This document shows positions 25,136 to 55,726 of a stretch of 64,000 nt of DNA, piece after piece (the first letter of the stretch is position 1; each line of letters begins with the position of its first letter). A program made the position numbers and the translations under genes. The DNA is from Bacteroidales bacterium. GTDB lineage: Bacteria; Bacteroidota; Bacteroidia; Bacteroidales; UBA932. Location: positions 62,001 to 126,000 of the forward strand of contig JAGBHM010000026.1 in NCBI GenBank assembly GCA_017935505.1. The letters run 5' to 3'. Below the pieces are notes generated by a model, which worked only from the letters and a program-made list of their open reading frames with translations, was not told the origin of the DNA and searched no databases.

Positions 25136-25906
25136 ATGATGAGTAAGTTTTTATCTTTTTTCAGGGGCAGCATCCTAGCTGTGGCGGATCTGCTCTTTCC
25201 AAGGAGGTGTGTAGTTTGTGGAGAGCCTCTGTTGCTGTATGAAGAGCATTTCTGTATGCATTGTCTGGCAGAATTGCCACTTACATATTTCTGGACCTAT
25301 AAAGAAAACGGAGCTTTTGTATCATTCTACGGGAGGGTGCATCTGGAGAATCTGTACTCTCTGTTTTACTATACCGAATCATACAGGAGGGCTATCCATT
25401 CATTCAAATATCACTCAAATGTGCGGCTGGGCTACTATCTGGCAAAGATGCTTGGCGAGAGAATTGGGGTGTCATATATCGATTATATAATACCGGTACC
25501 GCTGCATTACAGGAAAAAATGGAAAAGAGGCTTCAACCAGTCGGAGATAATTGCGGAGGGGATACGGGCAGGAATTATGGCGGCAATCTCCAAGATGGAG
25601 CAGAAGTGTGTGAGTAATGATAGTAAAGAGAATCTGTCGGCCCCTGTTGTGCTGACTAAGGTTCTGTGTAGGCGCAAGTTTACTGGAACGCAAACTCAAC
25701 GGGAGAAGATGGAGCGTTGGAAAAATGTTGAATTCGCATTTGTCCTCAACAGAAGGGGTGCAAAAAAATATAATCTCGATGGAAAACACATCCTGATCGT
25801 AGATGATGTCGTAACCACTGGAGCAACTCTGGATGCCTGTGCAAACATACTGCAGCAAAACTTCAACTGCCGCATATCAATAGCTACATTGGCGTGTGTG
25901 GAGTGA
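25136..25906 (+). CDS. ComF-family phosphoribosyltransferase-like protein
   Basis: ComF/GntX family: an N-terminal zinc ribbon (CVVCGEP and CMHC) followed by a type-I phosphoribosyltransferase fold with VPVPLH-like PVPLHYRKKWKRGFNQSE and the PRPP loop ILIVDDVVTTGATL. In naturally competent bacteria ComF acts in the cytosol on incoming DNA; elsewhere the role is unclear. The ATG at 25136 was chosen over a TTG at 25115; ATG codons stand in tandem at 25136 and 25139. The 3' end is duplicated in damaged form at 26870-26965, beyond the toxin-antitoxin pair. Confidence 0.88.
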   Translation: MMSKFLSFFRGSILAVADLLFPRRCVVCGEPLLLYEEHFCMHCLAELPLTYFWTYKENGAFVSFYGRVHLENLYSLFYYTESYRRAIHSFKYHSNVRLGYYLAKMLGERIGVSYIDYIIPVPLHYRKKWKRGFNQSEIIAEGIRAGIMAAISKMEQKCVSNDSKENLSAPVVLTKVLCRRKFTGTQTQREKMERWKNVEFAFVLNRRGAKKYNLDGKHILIVDDVVTTGATLDACANILQQNFNCRISIATLACVE

Positions 25907-46496: not shown

Positions 46497-46528
46497 TTTG
46501 GATGATATTTTGGTTTGATATATTTTTG
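46497..46528 (+). promoter_or_regulatory. Promoter of the nuclease/Oar operon
   Basis: TTTG (46497-46500) and TATTTTTG (46521-46528) with 20 bases between, close to consensus. The leader before the ATG at 46560 is about 28 bases. Confidence 0.65.
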
Positions 46529-46559
46529 CGTGCGAAAAGAAAAAAGATATACTCAGCCT

Positions 46560-48695
46560 ATGAAACAGACTAACTTACTTACCTTTCTATTATCGTTTGC
46601 AATATTGTTGCTCTCTTGTTCAAGCGAAGAATTTGTAGAGAAAATAACCCTCGACAAGTCCCAGCTGAATGTGTCGGCAGATGGAATTTCTGAAAATGTG
46701 GCTGTAACTTCCAATGTGTCATGGACCGCAACATACCTTAATGATGCGGGTACTACAGATTTGAACTGGATAACAGTCTCTCCATCAAAAGGAGAGGGAA
46801 ATGGAACCATAAGTATCTCTGTATCAAAGAATGGCGGGAAGGCCAGAAGTGCAGAGGTCAAAGTCTTCTCTTCGAAGGCGGAAGGCACAGTTGTAGTGTA
46901 TCAGGCGGCTGGAGTGGAAGAGCCTGATGAGCCAGGTGATGAGCCGGGAGATGATCCTGGCAGCGATGATTCGCAATACACAGCAATATCAAAAGTCCGT
47001 GCGTTGTATACCGGCACAGACTACAAGATAGCAGAAGATATCACAATTGCCGGTACTGTGATAAGTGATTACCGCAGAAATACATCGGGCGGCCTCAATA
47101 ACTATACATCGGCAAAAGCCATTATAGTATCGGATGGCAATTCAGGCATAATGCTCTATTGTGGTGCAGACAATACCGAATTCGCCAGAGGAGATAAAGT
47201 TACCGTAAAACTGAAAGACCAGACACTCTCTGTATACAATGGCGGTCCTCTTCAGGTAAACGGACTTCCTCTTGCAAACATTGCAAAGATCGGAACAGAG
47301 ACACCGGTTGCAAAAGAGATAACCGCTTCTGAACTGGTTACAGGCGCGTATGAGAGCACATATGTTGCTGTAAAGGATGTTCAGGTATCTTCTGATGATT
47401 TGGCAAAGACATTCGTAATGTCCGATTCCCATACAAGCATAGCAATAGAGGCAAAGACCGGTGAGATGTTTGATATATTCTCATCAAAATATGCTGTGTT
47501 CGGAACAGAGACTGTTCCTCAAGGAAGCGGTACCCTCAAGGGTATTGCAGGGGTGAACAACGGCAAATACCAGCTGTCGGTTTCAGACAGAAATGATTAT
47601 GCAGGCCTTACAAATGCAAGGTTTGTCTCTGCCCCTAAATTTGCATTGTCATACACAGAGATGAATGTGGCAGGAGAGGGCTCGTCAATTAAGGTGAAGC
47701 TCACTGCAAATGTGGAGTGGACAGCCAGCTCTTCAAATCCGGACTTCCAGTTGAGCCAGTCGAGCGGAAATGCAAGTGCTGAGATAACAATAAATTATAC
47801 TCAGAATCCAAGCACAACAGCAACCCGTACAGCTACTATAACATTCAAGACAACAAATGCTGAGGTGGCAAACAATATAATAACCTTGAAAATAACCCAG
47901 TATGCGTATGAGTCGCTTGTTTCGGATCCTGTAAACAAATGGATTGAACTTCCTAAGATTACACCGGCCGACGGATTTGCATACATTACACATGATATCG
48001 ACCTCAATGGCAAAAAGGTTAGGAACTACTCATATTGGCTCGACGGAAACAACCGTTATGCTCAGTGGGTTGCCTATACATTATATAAAGGTATAGATGC
48101 AAGCAATACAAGCAGGTCTGATGCCTGGAATTTCGACCCTAAGGTTCCTAAGAGATGCCAGCCTGTGCTGGCAAAAGGATGGGGTGTTACCGGTTATGAC
48201 AGGGGACACCAGCTCCCTTCTGCAGACCGTCTCCACTCAGTTGCTGCAAATGAGTCAACATTCTATTATATAAATATGACTGCCCAGAACAGCTCCCTCA
48301 ACCAAGGTATCTGGGGCAAACTGGAGACCAATGTGAGAAACTGGGCCAACAGTTGCGATACTCTCTATGTGGTTACAGGTGCTGTGGCAACAACAAAGGA
48401 GAATACAACTGTCGAGTATATAAAGGATAACAGTGGAAATAATGTTGCAATACCGAAGGCTTACTTCAAAGTTGTGCTGAGATACAAGAAATCGGATACA
48501 ACAAATGGCGGATATTCTGCTGTAGGTTTCTGGTTTGAGAACAAAGCCAATTCTGACGCTTCAATTGCAACCAAACATGCAAAGAGCGTGAAGGCTATAG
48601 AGGAGCTTACCGGATTCGACTTCTTCCACAATTTGGATGATTCAATAGAGAGTGCGGTAGAGGGCTCTGTGACTACCTCTATCTGGGGATTGTAA
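46560..48695 (+). CDS. Surface lipoprotein with BACON domains and a DNA/RNA non-specific endonuclease
   Basis: A 711-residue lipoprotein (lipobox LSCSSEEF with acidic +3/+4 residues, surface type). In order: BACON domain (about 25-115), an acidic Glu/Asp/Pro/Gly linker, an OB-like DUF5689-type domain (about 138-355), a second BACON (about 355-440) and a C-terminal NUC1 nuclease (about 455-711). The nuclease active site is GYDRGHQLPSADR (general-base His near residue 549) followed by NMTAQNSSLNQGIWGKLE (metal-binding Asn). It should cut DNA and RNA outside the cell. The ATG at 46560 was preferred to a non-ATG start at 46515. The Oar-like receptor follows after 55 bases. Confidence 0.9.
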   Translation: MKQTNLLTFLLSFAILLLSCSSEEFVEKITLDKSQLNVSADGISENVAVTSNVSWTATYLNDAGTTDLNWITVSPSKGEGNGTISISVSKNGGKARSAEVKVFSSKAEGTVVVYQAAGVEEPDEPGDEPGDDPGSDDSQYTAISKVRALYTGTDYKIAEDITIAGTVISDYRRNTSGGLNNYTSAKAIIVSDGNSGIMLYCGADNTEFARGDKVTVKLKDQTLSVYNGGPLQVNGLPLANIAKIGTETPVAKEITASELVTGAYESTYVAVKDVQVSSDDLAKTFVMSDSHTSIAIEAKTGEMFDIFSSKYAVFGTETVPQGSGTLKGIAGVNNGKYQLSVSDRNDYAGLTNARFVSAPKFALSYTEMNVAGEGSSIKVKLTANVEWTASSSNPDFQLSQSSGNASAEITINYTQNPSTTATRTATITFKTTNAEVANNIITLKITQYAYESLVSDPVNKWIELPKITPADGFAYITHDIDLNGKKVRNYSYWLDGNNRYAQWVAYTLYKGIDASNTSRSDAWNFDPKVPKRCQPVLAKGWGVTGYDRGHQLPSADRLHSVAANESTFYYINMTAQNSSLNQGIWGKLETNVRNWANSCDTLYVVTGAVATTKENTTVEYIKDNSGNNVAIPKAYFKVVLRYKKSDTTNGGYSAVGFWFENKANSDASIATKHAKSVKAIEELTGFDFFHNLDDSIESAVEGSVTTSIWGL

Positions 48696-48750
48696 AAACA
48701 GTGTTGATTATAATGTTCCAAAAAAAAATAATAAAACTATCTAACAATTT

Positions 48751-51700
48751 ATGAAACAAACTATTAAATGTTTTCTTGCCACTTTGGCTTGCCTGTTCGT
48801 GCTTATTCCGGCATTTGCGCAGGTAACAACATCCGGAATGAACGGATATGTTGGTGAAAAAGGTGCCGAGGCATTGGTTGGTGCAACAATTGTTGCTACA
48901 CATGTGCCTTCAGGTACACAGTATGTGGCCACCGCTAATGACGAGGGCCGTTTTGTGATTAATGGTATGCGTACCGGAGGTCCTTACAAAGTTCAGATCT
49001 CATTTATCGGAATGTCTACCATTGAGTATAAGGATATCTATCTGAAACTTGGTGAAGCTTATGAAATCAATGCGGAGATGGAGTCTTCGAATGAGTTGGA
49101 TGCAATCATCGTTGTTGGTGAAAGTGCATTCAAATCATCTCAGACTGGTGCCGCTTCTTCATTCAACCTCCAGACTGTAGAGTCTATCCCTACAATTGAT
49201 AGAAGTATTTATGATGTTGCGAAATTGTCGCCACAGGCTTCAGTAGGAAAAAATGGAGGTATCTCATTTGCAGGTTCTAACAACCGTTACAACAGCTTCC
49301 AGATCGACGGTGCCATTGCAAATGACGCATTCGGTCTCTCTTCTTCAGGAACAAACGGCGGACAGACCGGTGCCAATCCTGTGTCAATGGATGCAATTGA
49401 GGAGGTTCAGGTTGTAGTTGCTCCTTTTGATGTAAGACAATCTGGTTTTACAGGTGGTGCAATCAACGCAATTACCAAATCGGGAACAAACACTGTGAAA
49501 GGAACATTCTATTCATACTTCAATAACCAGGATATGATTGGAAAGACTCCTGGTGATGTTGCTGTAAGAGAGAAATATTCAACACAGTTGGCGCAGACTT
49601 ACGGTTTCACTGTAGGTGCTCCTATCATAAAGAACAAATTGTTCATCTTTGCCAGCGCTGAGTATTATAAAAAGACATATCCGGATGTAGATTCTCCTGC
49701 AAACGGAACATACAACAGCACTCCTCTTGCTGCTGAGGTATTTGATGCAGACGGAAACTCTTTGGGAAATATCTTCAATGAGAAGATGGCTCAGGCTATG
49801 ATCAACCATTATGAGAAGACTTTCGGCTTCAAGACAGGTGAGTCATATGGCCAGCATCAGGTTGAGGACAGGTCTATCAATGCAATGTTGCGTTTGGACT
49901 GGAATATCAACAACAATAACAAATTGATGTTGCGTTACCAGTTTATGGATGCTTTTGCAGACCAGTACAGCTCAAGCCCTAGCTCTTACAAATTCAACGG
50001 TTCTGCATACAAACAGTCAAATAAGACAAATACCCTTGTATTGGAGTTGAACTCACGTATATCAGACGAAGTTTCAAATGAGTTCCGTGCAACAGGCGTA
50101 TTTGTAAGAGATGAGCGTTCAATCGCTTATGCAGGTCCTAATATGTATATCGACGGAGATGAGATCGGTTTCTCACTCGGTACTGAGTTCTCTTCAGGTG
50201 CAAATGCCATGAGCTCGGATGCCTATACACTTACCGACAATGTCTCTATATATAAAGGTAACCACAATATCACTATCGGAACACACAATGAGTTGTTCAA
50301 ATTCTACAACATCTTCCTTCAGGGTGCTTTCGGAAGCTACTACTTCAATACTGTAGCAGATTACTTTACAAACAACTTCTACAAGTATGCTTACAAATAT
50401 GCAGACCCTGAGCTTACAAACGGCAACACCCGTTGGGGTGCAACCACTTGGGCAGCACAGTTCGGTCTGTATGTACAGGATGAGTGGAAACCTAACAAAA
50501 ACCTTACAGTTACATATGGTTTGCGTGCAGATATGCCGCTTCTTCTGAACAAACCTACAAAGAACCCTACATACAATGAGACTGACATAGCTATTGCAAA
50601 CAAAGCTTATGTGGGAACCATTCCTAGTGCAAAAGTTCTTCTCTCTCCTCGTATCGGTTTCCGTTGGTTTATGGATGAAGACCGTACCATGTTGCTCAGA
50701 GGTGGTGCAGGTCTGTTTACCGGCCGTGTACCTTTCGTATGGCTTTCAAATGCCTACAACAATACAGGTATGGAGTCTAAATCTATAACAGTAAACTCTC
50801 CTTCAAAAGATTTCCCTATTACTACAAACCCTTACAAGGATATTGTTGAGACTGGTATTGCAGCTGCTTCTGGTGGAGCTACAATCAACACTTTGGACAA
50901 GAAGTTCAAATATCCTCAGGTATTCCGTGCAAACTTGGGTTATGAGTATATGTTTGCAAAAGGATGGAAATTCACATTTGACGCATTGTATTCAAAAACA
51001 CTCAACAACGTATTCTTCAAGAACCTTGCACTTACTAGCAAGAATGTTGTTTATGGTGTGAACGCAACTGCAGCAGCAGAGAATGGCGCAAGCACCGCTC
51101 CATACTACACTGTTGACAAGGCTTATGCTGCTATCGTATCATTGGACAATACCAATAAAGGATATACATACTCATTCAGCGGTCAGATTGAGAAATCATT
51201 TGACTTTGGTCTTAACTTGATGGCTTCATATACATTTGGCCACTCATACTCTGTAAATGACGGTACATCTTCAGTAGCATACTCAAACTGGAAATACAAC
51301 TACTCAGTTGATACAAATGCTCCTGAACTTGGCTTCTCATTGTTCGACAGGCCTCACAAAGTAATGGCCATGATTTCTTACAACTCTCCTGTATATGCAA
51401 GAGGCTTGAAGACTACTGTTGCCTTGACATACGAGGGTGCCAGCGGACAGAGATACTCTTACTCAATGAATGAGTCGTCAGACTTTAACGGTGACGGACA
51501 GAAAGGTAACTCAGTATTGTATATCCCAACACAAAAAGAGGTTGGTATGATGAGCTGGGCAGATCCTGCAGATGCTGCAAAATTTGAATCATTTATCAGA
51601 AATGATGAGTATTTGAACAGCAACAGGGGCCAGTGGTCAGACAGATATGCCGGCATAGGTAAATTTGAACACCATTTCGATTTGCATATTGCACAGGACT

Positions 51701-51954
51701 TCTTCTATGACAAAGAGAACGGCAGAAAACTTCAGTTCATTGTAGACTTCATCAACTTCAGCAACTTGCTTAACCCTGAGTGGGGTATCTACTATTCAGG
51801 TGCATACAATGTGCAGATACTCAATGTTACCGCTTTGAGCAAAGATAGCAAAGGCAATATGACCCCTACATATAAATTCAATCCTAAGACTTTGTATGTG
51901 AGTGATTTCATGTCGAGATGGAGATGTCAGTTAGGCTTTAGACTAACATTCTAA
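48751..51954 (+). CDS. Oar-like TonB-dependent outer-membrane protein
   Basis: A 1067-residue outer-membrane barrel. After the signal (IPAFAQ) comes a carboxypeptidase-like domain (VGATIVATHVPSGTQYVA). The plug contains the Oar signature: FEVAKLSPQ-like YDVAKLSPQAS, AGSNNRYNSFQIDGAIANDAF, and PFDVRQSGFTGGAINAITKSGTN in segments. It lacks the SusC motif and no SusD partner follows. Oar proteins are linked to TonB-powered protein secretion in Myxococcus and to uptake in others. It lies between the nuclease and a BACON/OB lipoprotein (31 bases), so one transcript is likely. Confidence 0.9.
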   Translation: MKQTIKCFLATLACLFVLIPAFAQVTTSGMNGYVGEKGAEALVGATIVATHVPSGTQYVATANDEGRFVINGMRTGGPYKVQISFIGMSTIEYKDIYLKLGEAYEINAEMESSNELDAIIVVGESAFKSSQTGAASSFNLQTVESIPTIDRSIYDVAKLSPQASVGKNGGISFAGSNNRYNSFQIDGAIANDAFGLSSSGTNGGQTGANPVSMDAIEEVQVVVAPFDVRQSGFTGGAINAITKSGTNTVKGTFYSYFNNQDMIGKTPGDVAVREKYSTQLAQTYGFTVGAPIIKNKLFIFASAEYYKKTYPDVDSPANGTYNSTPLAAEVFDADGNSLGNIFNEKMAQAMINHYEKTFGFKTGESYGQHQVEDRSINAMLRLDWNINNNNKLMLRYQFMDAFADQYSSSPSSYKFNGSAYKQSNKTNTLVLELNSRISDEVSNEFRATGVFVRDERSIAYAGPNMYIDGDEIGFSLGTEFSSGANAMSSDAYTLTDNVSIYKGNHNITIGTHNELFKFYNIFLQGAFGSYYFNTVADYFTNNFYKYAYKYADPELTNGNTRWGATTWAAQFGLYVQDEWKPNKNLTVTYGLRADMPLLLNKPTKNPTYNETDIAIANKAYVGTIPSAKVLLSPRIGFRWFMDEDRTMLLRGGAGLFTGRVPFVWLSNAYNNTGMESKSITVNSPSKDFPITTNPYKDIVETGIAAASGGATINTLDKKFKYPQVFRANLGYEYMFAKGWKFTFDALYSKTLNNVFFKNLALTSKNVVYGVNATAAAENGASTAPYYTVDKAYAAIVSLDNTNKGYTYSFSGQIEKSFDFGLNLMASYTFGHSYSVNDGTSSVAYSNWKYNYSVDTNAPELGFSLFDRPHKVMAMISYNSPVYARGLKTTVALTYEGASGQRYSYSMNESSDFNGDGQKGNSVLYIPTQKEVGMMSWADPADAAKFESFIRNDEYLNSNRGQWSDRYAGIGKFEHHFDLHIAQDFFYDKENGRKLQFIVDFINFSNLLNPEWGIYYSGAYNVQILNVTALSKDSKGNMTPTYKFNPKTLYVSDFMSRWRCQLGFRLTF

Positions 51955-51985
51955 TTCTGGCAACATTAGCTAATTTTAAAACGAA

Positions 51986-54067
51986 ATGAAAAGTATGAAA
52001 AAATATTTATTATATCTTTTGATGGCATTTGCAGCAATCTCTTTCACCGCATGTGAGGATGATGCTGAACCGATGGGTCAATCCATCAGAGCTGATGTTC
52101 CTGAATTGAATTTTGAGGGACAGAACGGTGCCGAGCAGACTGTGTCGATTCTATCGGACGGTGATTGGGTAGCTTCGGCTCCAGAGTGGATTACAGTTAC
52201 TCCTAACTACGGTACAGGAAATATGACTGTAAGTATTAAAGTTGCAGACAACCTTGATACAGACGGAACTCTCGCTGCCGAGAGAAAAGGTTCTGTGACA
52301 TTCAGCGTACTTGAGTCTGCTGCAACAGTTGCAATTATCCAAGCCGGTGACCCTGCAAAGAAACCTGTGGAGCCTGCAAAAATTACAATTGCAGAGTTTA
52401 ATGCAGCTGCAGAGGATGAAACAGTATTCTATGAACTTACCGGTACAATTTCTGGTGTGAAGAGCACATATTATGGAAACTTCAATATCACAGATCCAAC
52501 AGGAACAGTATATGTATATGGTCTGTATGACAAACAGGGTGGTGAGTATGGCGCATTTGAGAACCTCGGTTTGAGCGAAGGCGACCTTATCACACTCCGT
52601 GGATACAGAGGTTCATACAACGGTCTTATCGAGGTTATGGGCGGTTACTATGTATCACATGTCGCTTCATTGGTATCTGCAACTCCATCAGAGGTTGAGC
52701 TTCCTATCGAGGGTGGTGAGTTTGAGATAGCCCTTGCATATAAAGGTGAAAGTTTTGAGGTTGCAATTGACGATGCTGCAAAATCATGGTTGAACATGGG
52801 TGCTATCAGACCTGACGGTGACACTACAAGAATTTCATTCTCAGCAGGTGAAAACCTTGGCGGTTTGCGTAACGCTACAATATCATTTACCTCTTCTAAA
52901 GGTGATGTTGTATCAACCGTAACAACCAATGTAAAACAGGAGGGTTCAATTGTTGATATTTCAATTGCTGACTTCTTGACAAAAGAGGATGGTCCTGCAT
53001 TGTACAGATTGACCGGTAAAATCAAGAGCATTGTAAAAGAGGAGTATGGTAATATCTACTTGGAAGATGCCACAGGTGAGGTATATGTTTATGGTGTTAC
53101 TGCAACAGCTGTTGAGAAAAATGACAAATCATTTGCATCACTTGGCCTTAAAGTGGGAGATATCCTCACTATAGTTGGAACAAAGAGCTCATACAAAGGA
53201 GAGCCACAAGCCGGTTACAACAATGTTCCTGCTTACTACGAATCTCATATCTCATATACTGAGTCAACAGTGGCAGACTTCCTTGCAGCATCAACCGGTG
53301 ATGCCTATTACAAACTCACTGGAACTGTGAAGAATCTCTCAAACGGCACATATAACAATGCTGAGATTTATGGTAATTTCGACCTTGTAGATGAGGCAGG
53401 TACCTCTGTTTATGTATATGGCCTTACAAAGGCTCCTGTGGCTAAAAACGACAAATCATTTGCTTCCCTTGGAATTAAAGAGGGCGACAAAGTGACCCTT
53501 ATCGGAAAACGTGCAGAGTACAAGGGAACAGCTCAGGTAGGTTCTGCATACTATATCTCACACGAGGCCGGACAGACTGGTGGCGATGAAGGTGGCGAAG
53601 GTGGTGGTGAGGCTACTGGAGGTTATAGCTGGACTCTTGAAAGTGGCGCATTTGGCACTGTAGATGCTTTTAAATCGTCTGTCACAGCAGGTACTCCTGC
53701 CTTGACATGGACTACAGCTATAACATGGGGTGCTAATGGTGGATATATAGGATTTGATACTAATGATAGTGCAAGAGGACTTCAGCTTGGATCAGGAAGC
53801 AAGCCTGCAACAGCATTCTCATTGGAGACAACAGCTACTGGTATTACAGTTTCTTCTATTGTAATCAATGGCTCAATTGCCAGTAGCGGTACTGCAAAGG
53901 TAAGTGTGTATGTGAATGATGCAAAAGTAGGGGAGACAGTTACGCTTACAACAACAGCAACCGATTATACATTTACTTTGGGATCTGCTGTAAAAGATGC
54001 TAAAGTTAAAATAGCTTACGAGAATACTCAAAAAGCTATGTATCTTAAATCAGTTACCTTGAAATAG
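51986..54067 (+). CDS. Surface lipoprotein with BACON and repeated OB-like domains
   Basis: A 693-residue lipoprotein (TACEDDAEP, surface-type signal). It has two BACON domains (about 35-120 and 235-325) and three copies of an OB-like unit (about 130-230, 330-430 and 430-530). Each unit reads roughly YELTGTI...YGNF.I.D.TGTVYVYGL...LGLSEGD.ITLRG...YKG...YYVSH. A Gly/Glu linker (about 532-550) leads to a C-terminal jelly-roll-like domain. No catalytic motif is seen. The OB-like units may bind nucleic acid or sugars. The same OB type occurs in the nuclease, the first gene of this operon. A second ATG at 51995 is possible. Confidence 0.85.
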   Translation: MKSMKKYLLYLLMAFAAISFTACEDDAEPMGQSIRADVPELNFEGQNGAEQTVSILSDGDWVASAPEWITVTPNYGTGNMTVSIKVADNLDTDGTLAAERKGSVTFSVLESAATVAIIQAGDPAKKPVEPAKITIAEFNAAAEDETVFYELTGTISGVKSTYYGNFNITDPTGTVYVYGLYDKQGGEYGAFENLGLSEGDLITLRGYRGSYNGLIEVMGGYYVSHVASLVSATPSEVELPIEGGEFEIALAYKGESFEVAIDDAAKSWLNMGAIRPDGDTTRISFSAGENLGGLRNATISFTSSKGDVVSTVTTNVKQEGSIVDISIADFLTKEDGPALYRLTGKIKSIVKEEYGNIYLEDATGEVYVYGVTATAVEKNDKSFASLGLKVGDILTIVGTKSSYKGEPQAGYNNVPAYYESHISYTESTVADFLAASTGDAYYKLTGTVKNLSNGTYNNAEIYGNFDLVDEAGTSVYVYGLTKAPVAKNDKSFASLGIKEGDKVTLIGKRAEYKGTAQVGSAYYISHEAGQTGGDEGGEGGGEATGGYSWTLESGAFGTVDAFKSSVTAGTPALTWTTAITWGANGGYIGFDTNDSARGLQLGSGSKPATAFSLETTATGITVSSIVINGSIASSGTAKVSVYVNDAKVGETVTLTTTATDYTFTLGSAVKDAKVKIAYENTQKAMYLKSVTLK

Positions 54068-54090
54068 GTTCAGGGCTGTACAACAAGCAT

Positions 54091-54137
54091 TAGCCGCCAT
54101 TGTCAGTATCAACTGGTAATGGCGGCTAGTTGTTTCT
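54091..54137 (+). terminator. Terminator of the nuclease/Oar operon
   Basis: A strong 11-base stem TAGCCGCCATT/AATGGCGGCTA starts 23 bases beyond the stop and is followed by a T-rich but broken tail. Confidence 0.7.
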
Positions 54138-54319: not shown

Positions 54320-55726
54320 CTATTCAACTACTGTATAGATCAGTTGTAGTTCAGGATGCCTTTCTGCTTTAGGACCGTTTATTTTAGCATTAAAATAGGT
54401 GTAGTTGTTTATATAATAGCTGGTGTATCCGTAATAGCTGTCAGTTTCGCTTCTGAGAGGATAGAGCCAGAAACTGTATGAGTCGTCCAGTTCGGATTTA
54501 TCCTTGTTCATTATCTTCTGGATTGTAGATGAAACATCACAGTTATACTGCAACAGTGAGCGGTTCATGACACCCATAGGGTTGTCTGTGCTGTTGTAGT
54601 CTTCGAGCGGATAATAGTATTTTACATCAGTTGTGTCGTTGGCAAATTTCCGGTTTGCAGGAAAAAGGTATGAAGGATACCTGTAGGGCACGATATCAAG
54701 GTTCTCAGGCAGCTCGAACGGGAATACTAGACTGGCCTTTGCTATAAGTACCTTTGCCGGGTCATAACCATTTTCTGCCGCCCACGAATTGAGTACATCC
54801 TTCAAGTCTGCAACATCAACATAAGGTGCTATTCCACCAATGCCTTCAATTGGAAGCTCCTCAAGAGGCTCATCGGTTTCCAGATTCTTTGAACTGTATT
54901 TTGAGGTGTTCAGGGTGTAGCCATATCCTAAGGTAATGGCGATCAAGGTATCTTTTCTCGCCAATCCCTCCTCCCATGTAGGCTGGAAATTGCATTTGAG
55001 GTAGATGAAAGATGATGTGGCATCAAACAGACTCAGACGGCCTCCTTCAATGTTTCCAGCAGGCGGATCGCAAGTTATGTACAAGCCCGGGTGACGCTCA
55101 GAAAAGAGTGCAAGTGAGTCGAGTTCCTCTGCGGTTGCGCTCAGAATCTCTGCTCCGAGTGCATTGTCGAGATATATTTTTATGCTGTCGCCACCAAAAT
55201 ATGTTGCAGCACTGGTGTTGAGCAATGTGTGGTGGTAGTCATCCTCTGAGATTGAGTTGGCGTAAAGAGTTGTGGAATCCAGCTGCTTTTTCAATCTGTA
55301 TACATTGATGTTCTGGGTGATTCCCTCTTGTGAAGGATCCAGAATTACCGATGCAGTGTTGAGTGAGCCACCTGAAGCAACCGCCGCCAAAGGGAGACTC
55401 AAATAAGTTGATATTATTTTAGGATCTTTCCCCAGATCCAACATTGTATTTGTGGGAGAGATGTTTGCTGCCATTCCAAACTCAGCCACTCCAAACTCCT
55501 TGGTGCGGAAAGCGCCTATTGTGGAATATGATGTTGTCACACCTTGAATGCTGTCTGCCATCTTGAGCGTTACAGGCAGAGGCAGTGATACCGACTGCAT
55601 TTTCAGCTTGTGGTCATCCGGTATATAGTCTGATCCTACCGATTTGTCAACGGTAATACATGAAAAAACTAACAGACATGAGAATGCTGTTAGTATCATG
55701 GTGCGGAGTGTATCCTTAAATTGCAT
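54320..55726 (-). CDS. DUF4270 lipoprotein
   Basis: A 468-residue lipoprotein (lipobox VFSCITVD). The start DKSVGSDYIP and the following YSTIGAFRTKEFGVAEFGMAANI are typical of DUF4270, a Bacteroidota-specific beta-rich family of unknown function. It overlaps the end of the GT5 gene by 11 bases, and this pairing is conserved in many Bacteroidota. The mature protein would be in the envelope while its partner is cytosolic. Confidence 0.85.
   Translation of the reverse strand: MQFKDTLRTMILTAFSCLLVFSCITVDKSVGSDYIPDDHKLKMQSVSLPLPVTLKMADSIQGVTTSYSTIGAFRTKEFGVAEFGMAANISPTNTMLDLGKDPKIISTYLSLPLAAVASGGSLNTASVILDPSQEGITQNINVYRLKKQLDSTTLYANSISEDDYHHTLLNTSAATYFGGDSIKIYLDNALGAEILSATAEELDSLALFSERHPGLYITCDPPAGNIEGGRLSLFDATSSFIYLKCNFQPTWEEGLARKDTLIAITLGYGYTLNTSKYSSKNLETDEPLEELPIEGIGGIAPYVDVADLKDVLNSWAAENGYDPAKVLIAKASLVFPFELPENLDIVPYRYPSYLFPANRKFANDTTDVKYYYPLEDYNSTDNPMGVMNRSLLQYNCDVSSTIQKIMNKDKSELDDSYSFWLYPLRSETDSYYGYTSYYINNYTYFNAKINGPKAERHPELQLIYTVVE

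Follow-up and report, generated by a model that had tools for sequence, protein, structure and literature searches.

The window, the whole stretch of 64,000 nt analyzed here, originated from a gut bacterium of the Bacteroidales with a 2.24-Mb genome, close to Candidatus Egerieousia. At 46497-54130 it contained three genes of the same orientation between a promoter and a strong terminator, which together form one transcription unit, as the first-pass annotation had proposed. The unit encoded a surface lipoprotein nuclease, an Oar-type TonB-dependent barrel, and a second surface lipoprotein with OB repeats, and its features were as follows:

46497..46528, plus strand: promoter TTTG-N20-TATTTTTG (Bacteroidetes -33/-7), exact consensus match.
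46560..48695, plus strand: surface lipoprotein nuclease, 711 aa, lipobox LLSC-SSEE, domain order BACON-DUF5689-BACON-Endonuclease_NS (Pfam, motif, dN/dS).
46977..47597, plus strand: DUF5689 (OB-type) domain of the nuclease (PF18942, E 3.6e-28).
48015..48641, plus strand: Endonuclease_NS catalytic domain (PF01223, E 2.3e-42).
48751..51954, plus strand: Oar-type TonB-dependent barrel, 1067 aa, PF13620 and OMP_b-brl_4 (Pfam, fold match).
51995..54067, plus strand: surface lipoprotein, 690 aa, lipobox C-EDD, domain order BACON-OB-BACON-OB-OB with a C-terminal beta domain (Pfam, structure model).
52364..52672, plus strand: OB repeat 1 (profile E 9.5e-44; Z about 10 to Stn1, RPA, and PolD DP1).
52940..53260, plus strand: OB repeat 2 (profile; with repeat 3, aligned to Teb1 AB and to the p204 HIN-dsDNA complex).
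53246..53575, plus strand: OB repeat 3 (profile).
54089..54130, plus strand: terminator hairpin with a 19-bp stem (-30.8 kcal/mol, z -5.03).

The exact Bacteroidetes promoter consensus was matched nine times in the window versus 1.1 matches expected. The start of the nuclease gene was assigned to the ATG at 46560; the TTG start of the open reading frame at 46515 falls within the promoter. The OB lipoprotein gene started at the ATG at 51995 (alternative, 51986), and the intergenic gaps measured 55 nt between the nuclease gene and oar and 31-40 nt between oar and the OB lipoprotein gene. The dN/dS values of 0.03-0.21 across all three genes (0.08-0.14 for the nuclease gene) indicated purifying selection. 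The unit was flanked by metK upstream and by a DUF4270 gene downstream, both on the opposite strand. The DUF4270 protein (54320-55726, minus strand), a neighbor of the unit and not a member of it, showed a distant resemblance, below the family cut-off, to BamH, a component of the Bacteroidota BAM complex, which is the outer-membrane assembly machinery (PMC12611786). A DUF4270 gene also adjoined a solo Oar at the same slot in many genomes of the genus.

The active-site motif of the nuclease was intact (DRGH and N..W..LE) and aligned with those of the solved Serratia nuclease and Anabaena NucA, with which the window nuclease also shared its catalytic domain. It differed from these two enzymes in its lipoprotein anchor and in the BACON and DUF5689 modules fused to the catalytic domain. 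The earlier description of a BACON-OB-nuclease was accurate for BACON, the OB class, and the nuclease, and is refined here in that the OB module is specifically a DUF5689 domain. The sole match of the DUF5689 profile among solved structures, a replication factor A, did not reach significance (E 0.35); therefore, no fold is claimed for this domain from that search. A second NS nuclease of the same genome (C18) stood alone.

The third gene was a BACON-OB lipoprotein, as had been annotated, with two BACON domains, the OB repeats, and a lipobox. In both lipoproteins the lipobox was followed by acidic residues (CSSEE and CEDD), which bears out the surface-export signals that had been read in them. 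The domain types said to be shared by the two proteins were limited to BACON and the OB class, because the nuclease has DUF5689 as its OB module and the repeats in the third gene belong to a different, RPA-like OB family. The OB lipoprotein was modeled at pLDDT 74. A whole-model Foldseek search retrieved generic multi-domain beta proteins only and was set aside in favor of domain-level alignment and a sequence profile. At the domain level, the OB domains were closest to nucleic-acid binders of the telomere and RPA type (Teb1, Stn1, RPA, and HIN) and to the anticodon-binding domain of LysRS. Independently of structure, the sequence profile of the repeats matched archaeal RPA32 (E 1.9e-5), and PF01336, the nucleic-acid OB family of Pfam, was matched in 9 of the 12 orthologues (best, 1e-10). 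Sequence and modeled fold place the repeats in the RPA/telomere nucleic-acid-binding class, and binding of single-stranded nucleic acid is predicted for them. OB folds can also bind sugars or proteins, which counts against a nucleic-acid reading.

The middle gene encoded an Oar-type TonB-dependent barrel, in line with the first-pass annotation (PF13620, 5.3e-13; OMP_b-brl_4, 5.1e-53). It was present in a single copy and was the only close Oar in its genome. The best fold matches of the predicted barrel were TonB-dependent receptors, although the model was of low confidence (pLDDT 60); the plug domain PF07715 scored 19 bits (cut-off, 23.9), with a pLDDT under 50 in the plug region.

The conservation of the unit was surveyed in a sample of GTDB species comprising 148 genomes of the order, 41 relatives, and 40 named loci, in which contig ends hid some neighbors. 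The nuclease-oar-OB lipoprotein order was kept in all five of the close relatives fetched, so the co-occurrence in relatives on which the original proposal depended was found. A second order, oar-OB lipoprotein-(lipoprotein)-NS nuclease, was located at metK (L127/L173, L063/L112, L065/L111, L079, L081, L083, L084, and L093). An NS nuclease lay within 12 kb of 14 of the 18 OB-linked Oar genes versus 2 of the 82 other Oars, the rows of this count being related by descent; both exceptions were paralogues inside the same operons as OB-linked Oars. The chance expectation, from some one NS nuclease per genome, was about 1%. In the Oar tree, the OB-linked Oars fell into separate, well-supported clades; few contrasts were available on this tree for an independent-pairs comparison. 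The two gene orders and these separate positions make an inherited chance neighborhood unlikely. Elsewhere (genome G157), a separate OB lipoprotein gene (L174|1) was situated directly 5' of the nuclease gene (L174|2), whereas the two are fused in the window. Oars with neither a nuclease nor an OB lipoprotein were the majority in the Bacteroidales, which implies a different or wider substrate for the Oar family at large and counts against the import of nucleic acid. In six genomes of the same genus (G003, G004, G011, G017, G019, and G021), the lipoprotein nuclease module was unlinked from a solo Oar. That module (L116-L122) comprised a long lipoprotein, NS nuclease, EEP nuclease, OMP945, DUF5689 lipoprotein, and M3 peptidase, and adjoined a Sir2-like gene.

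These data bear on the export of the nuclease by Oar, which had been put forward as one of two functions. In Myxococcus xanthus, Oar of the Oar-Ton system is required for the secretion of the protease PopC (PMC6434023). The window Oar has the same PF13620 and barrel architecture as Myxococcus Oar, and its gene adjoins that of the nuclease, the presumed cargo. However, in the window clade the nuclease is equipped with a lipobox and an acidic surface-export signal of its own, the majority of Oar genes lack a neighboring nuclease, and lipoprotein nucleases of the same type are unlinked from Oar in the six genomes mentioned above. Oar is therefore very unlikely to export the nuclease, and this part of the first-pass annotation found no support.

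The second gene order also connected the unit to DNA uptake. In other Bacteroidales, the loci of this order often continued into genes for an EEP nuclease, OMP945 (a second CarboxypepD_reg barrel), a DUF5689 lipoprotein, and an M3 peptidase. In Flavobacteriales, OMP945 and DUF5689 were paired in 19 of the 20 loci, in 15 of which an EEP nuclease lay beside the pair, and the pair was also found in all nine further Flavobacteriales loci read. According to a report on Riemerella anatipestifer, the PF13620 barrel RA0C_RS04915 and the adjacent DUF5689-DUF5017 protein RS04920 are essential for natural transformation, and both are close in numbering to comEC (RS04895) (PMC8459023). Loss of tonBA in Riemerella lowers natural transformation without an iron defect (PMC8383284). 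One 2.04-Mb Flavobacteriales genome (G373) carried comEC, metK, and the genes for EEP, OMP945, and DUF5689 within 18 kb. OMP945-DUF5689 is probably the Riemerella transformation pair, since domains, gene order, and place agree; this equation was made by domains, order, and proximity to comEC rather than by direct sequence comparison. The EEP nuclease, a conserved neighbor of the pair in Flavobacteriales (L189-L219), was not among the genes named by the Riemerella transposon screen in the accessible part of its report. The gene metK lay near uptake-type genes both in Bacteroidales (oar cluster; L173 and L127) and in the Flavobacteriales genome G373 (L209).

The window unit and the Riemerella-type pair both contain a CarboxypepD_reg outer-membrane barrel beside a DUF5689-containing surface protein; a nuclease gene adjoins the pair in Flavobacteriales, and in several Bacteroidales the pair is linked to oar, the OB lipoprotein gene, and the nuclease gene. 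They differ in that the barrel of the pair is of another subfamily than the window Oar and the neighboring nuclease is EEP, whereas that of the window is of the NS type. Orthology of the window Oar to the Riemerella-type barrel was rejected; full-length similarity to OMP945 was absent, the match being confined to 73 aa at the N-terminus (E 0.06). The window genome has an EEP nuclease at C30:64510, but this is a different paralogue with unrelated neighboring genes and was also rejected as a member of the system. OMP945 was absent from the window clade (G000, G012, G018, and G015), and G020 had a distant partial match only (26% identity). ComEC of the window clade was 396 aa long with the Competence domain only, in contrast to 586-678 aa with DUF4131 in Flavobacteriales. 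Across the window family, ComEC measured about 360-396 aa (L182, G000:C8:28146; L186), with DUF4131 and the C-terminal part missing. The window also contained a comF-like gene, recognized by its cysteine motif (25136-25906, plus strand).

Natural transformation is another function to be weighed. The nuclease would make single strands, the OB lipoprotein would hold them, Oar would pass them to the periplasm, and ComEC would pass them to the cytoplasm. The linkage of the unit in other families to a pair whose type is essential in Riemerella speaks for such a machine, as does the place of the comF-like homologue in G020 and G015, directly beside both metK and the nuclease-Oar unit. On the other hand, the window clade lacks OMP945, its ComEC is short, and long donor DNA would not survive a non-specific nuclease. 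We regard transformation as an improbable role of the unit.

Taken together, a unit that combines a nuclease, RPA-like OB domains, and a TonB-dependent barrel, and that is linked elsewhere to a DNA-uptake pair, is best read as an outer-surface system for nucleic-acid capture and TonB-dependent import, which we consider moderately probable. At the cell surface, the lipoprotein nuclease would cut DNA or RNA. The cut product (single-stranded or oligonucleotide) would be held by the DUF5689 and BACON modules of the nuclease together with the three RPA-like OB domains of the second lipoprotein, and the TonB-driven Oar barrel would carry the nucleic-acid product across the outer membrane. We infer nucleic acid as the substrate, the inward direction, and the docking of the OB lipoprotein on Oar, a contact that is suggested by the pairing of their genes. 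The scavenging branch of the first-pass annotation (cut, bind, and import) thus gains support from the linkage in relatives, the second gene order, and the OB repeats, which are assigned to the RPA/telomere class by sequence and model. In the window organism, the scavenging of nutrients such as phosphate and nucleobases is more likely than transformation, because the clade is without OMP945 and its ComEC is short. The M3 peptidase encoded in the wider cluster suggests protein or nucleoprotein as a further substrate, which weighs against a pure nucleic-acid reading.

The arrangement of a barrel, adjacent surface lipoproteins, and a surface hydrolase in one operon is that of SusCD-type TonB-dependent uptake loci. 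Unlike these, the window unit contained no carbohydrate enzymes, its substrate is most likely nucleic acid, and no SusD-family Pfam match was found in its two lipoproteins. The nuclease and OB lipoprotein might instead serve surface defense or the remodeling of extracellular DNA, with the barrel importing something else or merely docking them. Secreted NS nucleases have such roles, and Oar is found alone in most genomes. However, oar and the OB lipoprotein gene were tightly paired even where no nuclease was nearby (L077 and L129), and a search of PADLOC-DB for anti-phage defense gave no match for any of the three proteins. A role in defense or remodeling appears unlikely, and capture and import remains the preferred reading.

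An Oar-nuclease-OB system of exactly this composition was not found described in the open-access journal papers searched, in keeping with what had been noted before; the related barrel and DUF5689 pair is that of Riemerella (PMC8459023). Tentatively, Oar and the OB lipoprotein may constitute a TonB-powered importer of ssDNA or oligonucleotides that, together with OMP945-DUF5689-EEP, forms a Bacteroidota route replacing the type IV pilus and secretin of other Gram-negatives; this broader proposal is speculative. The unit is a compact three-gene model in which a barrel is accompanied by a nuclease and an explicit partner of the nucleic-acid-binding type, which makes TonB-dependent nucleic-acid import testable. 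It offers a candidate substrate for DUF5689 and for the large family of orphan Oar-like barrels. Since a CarboxypepD_reg barrel and a DUF5689 protein are required for transformation in Riemerella, the unit also bears on how the outer membrane is crossed in Bacteroidota.
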